The position numbers and the translations under genes were made by a program. Positions 18,620-20,474 of a DNA stretch of 64,000 nt are shown piece after piece (the first letter of the stretch is position 1; each line of letters begins with the position of its first letter). The notes under the pieces are model-generated. The model was not told the DNA's origin. It saw nothing but the letters and a program-made list of their open reading frames with translations, and searched no databases. Source of the DNA: Rhizobium sp. R711 (GTDB taxonomy: Bacteria; Pseudomonadota; Alphaproteobacteria; Rhizobiales; Rhizobiaceae); contig NZ_LOKZ01000001.1 of the NCBI RefSeq assembly GCF_002211365.1, positions 310,001-374,000 on the forward strand. Direction: 5' to 3'.

Positions 18620-18634
18620 CCATGTGACCGATCG

Positions 18635-18664
18635 GTAACAAATGCATTGTTACTTACCGGTAAC
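18635..18664. promoter_or_regulatory. Probable TetR operator pair
   Basis: Inverted repeat GTAACA (18635-18640) with TGTTAC (18648-18653), immediately followed by the perfect palindrome TTACCGGTAA (18655-18664). It lies between tetR (start 18619, minus strand) and the small gene at 18747. A TTGACA (18613-18618) with TAACAA 17 bases on is a possible plus-strand promoter running into the operator. Binding is inferred from position and symmetry. Confidence 0.65.
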
Positions 18665-18746: not shown

Positions 18747-18953
18747 ATGAGCAAGACCAGACAAGACCTGACCATCGCCGAAGCCCTTCGCGACCCCCTG
18801 ATCGCCATGGTACTGCGCGCCGACGGTGTGAAACTCGACGATTTCAGACGTCTCCTCGAGACCGCCGCCAAGAAGCGCGAACAGCGGGTCTCTCCAGTGG
18901 GCAAATTTATGAACGCGATCTCCAACCCAGCTGCCATGTGCAGCTATTGCTGA
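18747..18953 (+). CDS. Small protein of unknown function, TetR-linked
   Basis: A 68-residue protein (helical segment LDDFRRLLETAAKKREQRV) ending in a cysteine-containing tail AAMCSYC. The start follows AAAGGAGGCAAACC, a strong ribosome binding site. It lies alone behind the TetR operator region and ahead of a terminator. Not recognised as a named family; a stress-induced small protein is possible but unproven. Confidence 0.7.
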   Translation: MSKTRQDLTIAEALRDPLIAMVLRADGVKLDDFRRLLETAAKKREQRVSPVGKFMNAISNPAAMCSYC

Positions 18954-19024: not shown

Positions 19025-19903
19025 CTACTCGCAAAGCAGGTCATACTTCAAGTTGCCGAGATATTCGGGGTCGGCGAGAGCATCGATCGCAGCAATCTTT
19101 TCCCCATCGAAGGTAAGAAGCAGGACGACGCGCAGTTGTCCTTCGACTGCGACCACGAGCCCGAATTCCTTATCGATCATTGCTGGCTGTGCTGCCTGGG
19201 CACGTCCCTTGAAAGTGTCTGCAACGGCATCTGCCCCGCGAAGCTCGCGAACAGAAGGATTATACTGCATTGCCGCAGCATCAGGGGTGAAGACGACCTG
19301 CGGATCGAGGATCGAGAGCAGCGCCTTGATGTCGCCGAGGCGCGAAGCCGCCAGGAACGCGTTGACGATCTGCTTCTTTCGCGCGGCGTCCGCCTCCGGC
19401 ACATCTGTCCTGCCCTGCACCCGGCGGCGGGCGCGGCTTGCGAGCTGGCGAGTTGCCGCCGATGAGCGGCGAATGATCGGCGCGATGTCGTCGAAAGGCA
19501 GATCGAACATATCGTGCAGCACGAAGGCGACGCGCTCGGCGGGCGCCAACCTCTCAAGGACGACCAGGAGCGCCAGCCCGACGGAGTCGGCAAAGGCCAC
19601 CTCCCGCTCCGGATCGACCGCCCCGGAGGGGCCGGCGACGCGCTCATGAACGGGGAGATCAAATGGCTCTTCCCGCCTCGTCTTTCTTGAACGCAGCATA
19701 TCCAGGCAGATGCGTGCCACGACAGTTGTCAACCAGCCGCCGACATTGTCGATCGTCTCAGCATCCGAACGGCCGAGCCGAAGCCAGGCCTCCTGAACGG
19801 CATCGTCGGCCTCTGCGCGGGAACCAAGCATGCGATAGGCGACGGCGCTAAGATGCGCCCTGTTCGCTTCAAATTCTCCCGTCACCCAGTTCTTCTCGAT
19901 CAT
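19025..19903 (-). CDS. ECF41-type RNA polymerase sigma factor with SnoaL-like C-terminal domain
   Basis: A 292-residue sigma factor. Region 2 is at about residues 10-75 (HLSAVAYRMLGSRAEADDAVQEAWLR begins it), region 4 at about 110-165 (APAERVAFVLHDMFDLPFDD, then SSAATRQLASRARRRV), and a fused C-terminal SnoaL-like domain at about 175-290 ends in ADPEYLGNL. This layout and a neighbouring carboxymuconolactone-decarboxylase gene define group ECF41, in which the fused domain replaces an anti-sigma factor. The DGGGR-type motif of the group reads PDAAAMQ here. ATG 19903 follows GGAGGAATGTGACA. It probably drives its own promoter and that of the facing gene. Confidence 0.9.
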   Translation of the reverse strand: MIEKNWVTGEFEANRAHLSAVAYRMLGSRAEADDAVQEAWLRLGRSDAETIDNVGGWLTTVVARICLDMLRSRKTRREEPFDLPVHERVAGPSGAVDPEREVAFADSVGLALLVVLERLAPAERVAFVLHDMFDLPFDDIAPIIRRSSAATRQLASRARRRVQGRTDVPEADAARKKQIVNAFLAASRLGDIKALLSILDPQVVFTPDAAAMQYNPSVRELRGADAVADTFKGRAQAAQPAMIDKEFGLVVAVEGQLRVVLLLTFDGEKIAAIDALADPEYLGNLKYDLLCE

Positions 19904-19930
19904 TGTCACATTCCTCCAGCCTGTTTCGTC
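19904..19930 (+). promoter_or_regulatory. ECF41-type promoter for the carboxymuconolactone-decarboxylase-like gene
   Basis: TGTCACA (19904-19910), a 16-base spacer, then CGTC (19927-19930): an exact match to the ECF41 promoter consensus. It points to the gene at 20016, giving a leader of about 80 bases. Its -35 begins directly before the sigma factor start codon on the other strand. Confidence 0.85.
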
Positions 19931-19938
19931 AACTCCAT

Positions 19939-19965
19939 GACGGACGAAACCCGGCTGATGTGACA
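19939..19965 (-). promoter_or_regulatory. ECF41-type promoter for the sigma factor gene
   Basis: On the minus strand TGTCACA (19965-19959), a 16-base spacer, then CGTC (19942-19939). It points to the sigma factor gene (start 19903), so the sigma factor probably controls itself. It faces the plus-strand promoter, with only 8 bases (19931-19938) between the two -10 elements. Confidence 0.85.
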
Positions 19966-20015
19966 AAGCACGACCGGCAGCGTCAGTCTGGAGAAAGACC
20001 GCAAGGAGACATGTG

Positions 20016-20474
20016 ATGCAAGCAAGAATGGGAAATCCAGCCCTCGTCGTTCCAGAAGCGATGCAGGCGCTCCACGTACTCGGGACGATACCGGCCAAAT
20101 CGGGCCTGTCGCCGATTCTTTTGGAACTCGTCAATCTGCGTGCCAGCCAGATCAATGGCTGCAGCGTCTGCATCGACGGCCATCCGCGCATCGCCAAGAA
20201 GGCCGGCGAAACCGATGAACGGCTGTTTGCCGTCAGTGCCTGGCGCGACACGCCATACTTCACGCCGGCCGAACGTGCAGCCCTTGCACTGACTGAGGCG
20301 GTGACCCGCGTCAGCGATCGTGCAGACCCCGTACCCGACGACATCTGGGACGAAGCCACGCGGCATTTCAGCGGCAAGAGCCTGGCAGCCCTCGTCATCG
20401 CCATCGCCAACATCAATGTCTGGAACCGTCTGAACATCGCTACCCGGCAGATCGCCGGGGAGTGGAAGCCGTAA
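20016..20474 (+). CDS. Carboxymuconolactone decarboxylase/AhpD-like protein
   Basis: A 152-residue alpha-helical protein with the AhpD-type redox motif (INGCSVCIDGH, CxxC followed by His) at about residues 49-59. Such proteins act as alkylhydroperoxidase-like peroxidases or decarboxylases. ATG 20016 follows AAGGAG by 7 bases. The gene faces the ECF41 sigma factor and has an exact ECF41 promoter, the standard partner arrangement of this sigma group. A strong terminator follows. Confidence 0.92.
   Translation: MQARMGNPALVVPEAMQALHVLGTIPAKSGLSPILLELVNLRASQINGCSVCIDGHPRIAKKAGETDERLFAVSAWRDTPYFTPAERAALALTEAVTRVSDRADPVPDDIWDEATRHFSGKSLAALVIAIANINVWNRLNIATRQIAGEWKP

Follow-up and report, generated by a model that had tools for sequence, protein, structure and literature searches.

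A mirrored 62-bp element as a probable bidirectional promoter shared by an ECF41-like sigma factor gene and its divergent neighbour

We find that the region from which an ECF41-like sigma factor gene and a gene of the carboxymuconolactone decarboxylase (CMD)/AhpD type diverge contains a 62-bp mirror element, TGTCACA-N16-CGTC-N8-GACG-N16-TGTGACA, at positions 19904-19965 of the window (the whole 64,000-nucleotide stretch of Rhizobium sp. R711 DNA that was analysed). This element is probably one bidirectional promoter of the neighbouring sigma factor, which would use it in two mutually exclusive orientations. In other genomes, the lengths and the boxes of such elements are kept while most of their letters drift.

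Results

The plus strand from 19904 to 19930 and the minus strand from 19965 to 19939 both read TGTCACA-N16-CGTC, and the two sites face each other, their CGTC boxes separated by 8 bp, so that the sequence bears out the 62-bp facing arrangement described in the first-pass annotation. By motif match, the promoter directed towards the CMD gene (CMD-ward) consists of a -35 box at 19904-19910 and a -10 box at 19927-19930 on the plus strand, and the promoter directed towards the sigma gene (sigma-ward) of a -35 box at 19959-19965 and a -10 box at 19939-19942 on the minus strand. The identity of the two strands described in the annotation is confined to the boxes; the spacers differ. The minus strand of the element contains CGTC in two tandem copies, giving a spacer of either 12 or 16. 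We discarded the spacer-12 reading: relatives in the genus retain the spacer-16 CGTC while most have other letters at the spacer-12 site (for example, CGTT or CATT), and the spacer-16 box is therefore the conserved copy. In shuffles of the window, the motif with a spacer of 14-18 occurred 0.13 times on average, and two matches were reached in 1 of 100. Throughout the 5.79-Mb genome (39 contigs), the exact spacer-16 motif occurs at these two sites only, and a backwards control motif has zero matches. Between 19700 and 20200, no match resembling a housekeeping promoter was found, and there was one terminator-like match compared with 0.6 expected.

The sigma gene (19025-19903, minus strand; 292 amino acids) starts with an ATG at 19903, directly adjoining the -35 box of the opposite, CMD-ward promoter, and its Shine-Dalgarno-like GGAGGAA (19911-19917, minus strand) lies within the spacer of that promoter. 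On the other side, the CMD/AhpD-type gene (20016-20474, plus strand) encodes 152 amino acids from the ATG at 20016, with a GTG at 20013 as another possible start, and matches PF02627 at 2.4e-20. The proposed link between the sigma gene and a likely target, through facing promoters with overlapping footprints, is supported. Several features place the sigma factor close to ECF41, namely regions 2 and 4 (Sigma70_r2 at residues 11-74 and Sigma70_r4_2 at 111-161) followed by a C-terminal extension of the ~100 amino acids expected of this group, a neighbour from the CMD, oxidoreductase or epimerase families, and two exact copies of the promoter motif TGTCACA-N16-CGTC. Within the extension, SnoaL_2 matches residues 180-268 below threshold (21.5 bits against a cut-off of 27), and the nearest NCBIfam models, NF007214 (SigJ, the best) and TIGR02957, likewise score under their own cut-offs. 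The WLPEP motif, given as an ECF41 hallmark in the linker between regions 2 and 4 (PMC3426412), is absent from this protein, whose linker reads FDLPVHE. The annotation's two facing ECF41-type promoters stand, but the sigma factor is filed as ECF41-like rather than strictly ECF41. WLPEP is not an absolute mark, as RpoE9 of Sinorhizobium meliloti, classed as ECF41 in PMC6180224, has WLPDP.

In a search of the genome with the sigma factor's sequence, only the protein itself matched at E <= 1e-35 (20 of the 22 candidates scored). ECF41 genes are expected to have no adjoining anti-sigma gene; the domain-searched genes flanking this one are a TetR-family gene, the CMD gene and an open reading frame of 68 amino acids (18747-18953) that ends in MCSYC, adjoins the TetR gene and has no Pfam or NCBIfam match. 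By eye, two similar palindromic stretches, ACCGATCGGT and GTTACTTACCGGTAAC, can be seen at 18624-18664 between the TetR-family gene and this small frame, and are perhaps TetR operators. In Rhizobium plasmid records, the pair adjoins rhamnose catabolism genes such as rhaI (20540 onwards in the window; also L277). The laboratory symbiont Rhizobium johnstonii 3841 (L022/L277) carries the same element.

Start sites can be predicted from the S. meliloti RpoE9 promoter, where the mapped start is a G located 9 nt after CGTC (PMC3616915, PMC6180224). On this basis, the CMD transcript would begin at the G at 19939 (plus strand), 9 nt past CGTC and with a 77-nt leader, and the sigma transcript at the G at 19930 (minus strand) with a 27-nt leader. 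The two predicted starts are 9 bp apart and diverge, and each predicted +1 G would lie across from the final C of the other promoter's -10 box, with the result that both orientations would melt the same DNA. The earlier statement that each promoter lies in the transcribed region of the other holds for these predicted starts, although the two predicted RNAs do not overlap, since they start 9 bp apart and run in opposite directions. Two points weigh against our reading here: the positions are transferred from the distant member RpoE9, and the base at +9 in 30 promoters outside facing pairs was G in 16, A in 8, T in 4 and C in 2. We also considered whether ECF41 promoters generally start with GACG and would thereby mirror themselves, and rejected this idea: GACG stood at +9 to +12 in only 3 of these 30 promoters (GAC in 9 of 30), and the S. 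meliloti RpoE9 promoter reads GGAA from +1 and hence has no mirror -10 box. GACG at ECF41 promoter starts is a partial tendency and not an explanation of the mirror. A literature search covering titles and abstract openings found no published start sites for a facing locus.

We scanned the GTDB collection (84,980 species by its own description) for mirrored elements, leaving the gap between the boxes free from 0 to 30 bp and letting one spacer vary from 15 to 17. At least 118 were found, compared with a chance expectation of ~1.4 (257 billion bases, 22 fixed letters, 93 length combinations and equal base frequencies), and a chance origin was therefore rejected. Among the matches listed, 110 of 118 have the exact 16-8-16 geometry; the others are 16-9-16 (three), 16-11-16, 16-8-17, 15-11-16, 16-12-16 and 16-9-15. 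By organism name, the matches listed belong to Actinomycetota (80), Pseudomonadota (27), Acidobacteriota (6) and Chloroflexota (2), with single elements in Myxococcota, candidate division FCPU426 and Nitrospirota, and the exact geometry is present in six of these phyla, every one but Nitrospirota. A homologue of the window sigma factor has its extrapolated start between -24 and +144 bp from the element edge in 111 of the 118 matches listed, and within -10 to +9 bp in 70 of these 111. Closer to the window, a draw of alphaproteobacteria gave sigma matches at E <= 1e-45 in 3 of 240 genomes, its own included, and double elements fitting the search patterns were found in 4 of 199 genomes of the family and 3 of 397 of the order (own genome included).

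Seven of the 118 matches listed had no sigma match. Three of them (L013, L048 and L119) sit at the end of the sequence that was fetched; L053 is flanked on one side by a CMD gene and on the other by a frame that, by eye, looks like part of a sigma gene but has no Pfam match; and L044 (gap 11, spacer 15), beside a gene for a MobA-like NTP transferase, is probably a chance match. The remaining two are Acidobacteriota records (L030:2434-3355 and L031:663-1693) in which the exact 62-bp element lies between CMD and DoxX_2 genes with no adjoining sigma match, and autoregulation is therefore not general. For the partner genes we surveyed 59 nonredundant loci, 7 of which had no open reading frame, and the other 52 gave 75 candidates with at most two per locus. 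These comprised CMD (26), NAD_binding_10 (6), NmrA (6) and Epimerase (5), the last three overlapping in kind, glyoxalase (6), PNPOx_N (5), and transporters, DoxX_2 and others with one or two each; the rest had no match, and some are surely false frames.

The letters of the element were compared after setting aside non-exact geometries, loci without a sigma match and elements within 25 bp of an edge, which left 104 loci and, below 70% identity, 59 nonredundant ones. In these exact elements the -10 box is better written CGTCA (A in 88%), mirrored as TGACG (T in 77%), and spacer positions are mostly low in information. Pairwise identity at the 40 non-box positions was 40%, compared with 29% in the flanks. 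The spacing has thus been kept while most other DNA diverged, a pattern that points towards selection for use in both directions.

We also examined a sample that was blind to the geometry, comprising 109 loci (L155-L263) collected by means of the sigma protein alone, with only ~100 sigma residues in 48 of them. The sources were 60 genomes from the phylum of an Actinoplanes (30 loci), 148 genomes of its class (75 further loci) and 119 genomes from the phylum of a Terriglobus (4 loci). Four loci (L161, L176, L182 and L212) from the two centre genomes, which had been picked for carrying the element, were set aside, leaving 105. Allowing at most one mismatch per box, 28 of the 105 had a pair (30 in the 109), 22 of them facing and six back-to-back. 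The gap between facing promoters was 8 in 13 (15 in the 109), 9 in 7, 26 in one and 209 in one, whereas the back-to-back gaps were 0, 9, 9, 12, 17 and 63. The count excludes facing pairs whose gap is below -4; two of these occurred at -15 (L188 and L192), with GTGAC just past the -10 box. Dinucleotide shuffles of the 109 regions gave 0.35 pairs per set, and no facing pair with a gap of 8 or 9 arose in 40 sets. On the other side of the balance, 77 of the 105 blind loci had no qualifying pair. As a separate observation, the sigma-side -10 box is GGTC in all seven facing pairs with a gap of 9 (L158, L162, L173, L177, L242, L247 and L250) and in 3 of 15 with a gap of 8 (L155, L209 and L263); the facing gap and this -10 letter seem to be linked.

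These data bear on the alternative that two ordinary divergent promoters simply overlap because the intergenic region is short, each working alone and the spacing having no function. Such a reading would explain the conservation of the boxes with no interplay at all, back-to-back pairs do occur in the blind sample, and divergent loci with the motif ahead of both the sigma gene and its COE (CMD, oxidoreductase or epimerase) gene are known (Wecke 2012, PMC3426412); of the 55 listed in Table 4 of that paper, 36 have the motif ahead of the sigma gene and 41 ahead of the COE gene. However, chance overlap would scatter the gap, as is seen in the back-to-back pairs, whereas 20 of the 22 facing pairs have a gap of 8 or 9, and the exact geometry prevails among the matches listed in the scan despite the low identity outside the boxes. 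We therefore regard independent, fortuitously overlapping promoters as unlikely, and the same face-to-face spacing that the annotation had proposed to look for at ECF41 loci does recur.

A quick tree was built from 121 sigma proteins, with 50 of its 118 inner branches under 80. One part of it, split off at an SH-aLRT of 99, contained RpoE9, 10 of the 11 blind-set rows with WLPEP and two further rows. No facing element occurs in this part, and the eleventh WLPEP row (L203) was placed among the rest of the tree. Across the 109 loci, the facing state with a gap of 8 or 9 was found in 0 of 11 with WLPEP versus 22 of 98 others, 20 of those 22 being outside the centre genomes. The facing state requires at least 12 changes on the tree without the rows from the pattern scan and at least 21 with all rows; its distribution may reflect either old inheritance with losses or repeated gain.

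Within the genus of the window, a sigma match at E <= 1e-35 was present in 99 of 120 genomes. Among the best 30 genus loci, the best pair was a facing pair with a gap of 8 in 26, and L136, L137 and L140 have such a pair with GGTCACA on the CMD side; nine lower-listed loci (L264-L272) had a gap of 8 in eight and 9 in one. The distant homologues L273-L275 showed one back-to-back pair at 31 and zero facing pairs. Two loci can be viewed as natural mutants: L151, the remaining one of the best 30, carries an additional base in the centre and no longer has the CMD-ward -35 box, and L272 carries an additional base with every box still recognisable. Across 39 genus loci, the CMD-ward -35 box reads TGTCACA in 20, GGTCACA in 11 and CGTCACA in 7 and is lost in 1. 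After reduction of the 39 to 22 nonredundant loci, the mean majority share was 0.99 and 1.00 in the sigma-ward boxes, 0.85 and 0.91 in the CMD-ward boxes, 0.85 and 0.75 in the spacers, 0.77 in the centre, and 0.50 and 0.65 in the flanks. These shares are weak evidence, because the sigma-ward motif served as the anchor of the alignment, two of the loci are displaced by one base on the CMD side, and conservation extends to the spacers.

The variation in the CMD-ward -35 box, intact in about half of the genus loci and changed at its first base in 18, indicates that this half may be weak, and raises the question of whether the sigma-ward promoter alone is active at the window site, with the CMD-ward half a relic. 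The near-perfect sigma-ward boxes in the genus would fit, in an alignment anchored on them. Against this, both halves are perfect in the window, the remaining six bases of the CMD-ward -35 box are kept in 38 of the 39 loci, and CMD-type genes are proven targets elsewhere (PMC3426412); we consider a relic rather improbable.

Much the least probable is that the inverted repeat is foremost a site for a dyad-binding regulator or an RNA hairpin, with the promoter resemblance secondary: the window 62-mer would form a strong fold if it were transcribed in full (z -4.7) and holds an inner repeat, GTTTCGTC/GACGAAAC, but complementarity of the non-box positions across the centre was 0.353 against 0.350 from column composition (sd 0.011) in the 59 nonredundant elements, restricting the mirror symmetry to the promoter boxes, both predicted RNAs begin mid-element so that neither would hold both arms, and the boxes are those of mapped ECF41 promoters, for which reasons we rejected it.

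Discussion

Taken as a bidirectional promoter, the element would work as follows. Holoenzyme containing the ECF41-like sigma factor would bind the site in one of two mirrored orientations. Pointing right, it would transcribe the CMD/AhpD-type gene, and pointing left, it would transcribe the sigma gene itself, amounting to positive autoregulation. The spacing of 8 bp would place each start across from the final base of the other promoter's -10 box, so that both orientations would melt CGTC-N8-GACG, and because this stretch is shared, the two complexes, whose footprints overlap, would be mutually exclusive. One site would thus have two outputs, the split between them being set by the relative strength of the half-promoters. 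With little sigma factor present, an independent trickle would run both ways; with active sigma factor, initiation would be shared and capped with a fixed split, and the sigma factor and its target would be made in a fixed ratio. A role as a switch or in noise control, as suggested in the annotation, is a possibility.

In its parts, the element resembles known ECF41 systems, which share the TGTCACA-N16-CGTC motif and the pairing of a sigma gene with a neighbouring CMD, oxidoreductase or epimerase gene. ECF41 sigma factors of Bacillus licheniformis and Rhodobacter sphaeroides drive CMD genes from such promoters (Wecke 2012, PMC3426412). The -35 box of the window is that of these two 5'-RACE-mapped promoters, whose -10 boxes are TGTT in B. 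licheniformis and CGTC in R. sphaeroides (PMC3426412). In contrast to the window, both mapped promoters precede single genes or operons; the window sigma factor also lacks the WLPEP motif. A word search of the main text of PMC3426412 gave no mention of a facing or overlapping arrangement, or of a fixed spacing, and one of PMC10880074 gave a single mention of ECF41 and none of bidirectional. The S. meliloti RpoE9/SMb20029 promoter has the same -35 box, spacer length and -10 box as the window and a CMD-type target, but is a one-direction operon promoter (PMC3616915, PMC6180224). At hrpL/hrpJ of Pseudomonas syringae, an ECF sigma gene and a target operon likewise diverge from a 'bidirectional promoter region'; there, however, hrpL is read by sigma-54 and the target from a hrp box, so that different sigma factors serve the two directions (PMC5263251). 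A search of titles and abstract openings of openly available papers found no two-way promoter read by one ECF sigma factor. The double motif at divergent loci is known, whereas this search turned up no published account of the facing, locked geometry.

The original paper on bidirectional promoters of Escherichia coli and Salmonella reportedly dates from 2021. In these promoters, starts on opposite strands lie 7-25 bp apart with reciprocal overlap of -10 box and start, and polymerase is unable to bind both ways at once; raised activity leads to competition, and interference lowers cell-to-cell variation (PMC12825309, PMC10268837). The window element is similar in its pseudo-symmetric DNA, with predicted starts 9 bp apart falling in that range; its box symmetry is exact, and an overlap of -10 box and start is predicted from the S. 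meliloti start. It differs in other respects. The E. coli and Salmonella promoters have mainly housekeeping -10 symmetry, by which bidirectional promoters have mainly been recognised, and starts most often 18 bp apart (10 and 23 also being common), whereas here the -35 and -10 boxes are both mirrored, the sigma factor is of the ECF type and one output is the sigma factor itself. For five bidirectional promoters of E. coli, basal activity was too low for competition (PMC12825309), and interference at the window element would therefore be expected only with active sigma factor.

More tentatively, it is possible that a dedicated class of ECF sigma factors has its target and its own gene on one geometrically locked two-way docking site, where shared melting would force a choice between regulator and product; this may provide ratio control and a brake on positive feedback, kept with base-pair precision across phyla. 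Because the sigma factor that would drive both directions is itself one of the products, the element offers a compact natural test of how polymerase competition may shape a feedback loop and its noise, and moving it to a laboratory host would take one sigma gene and two reporters.
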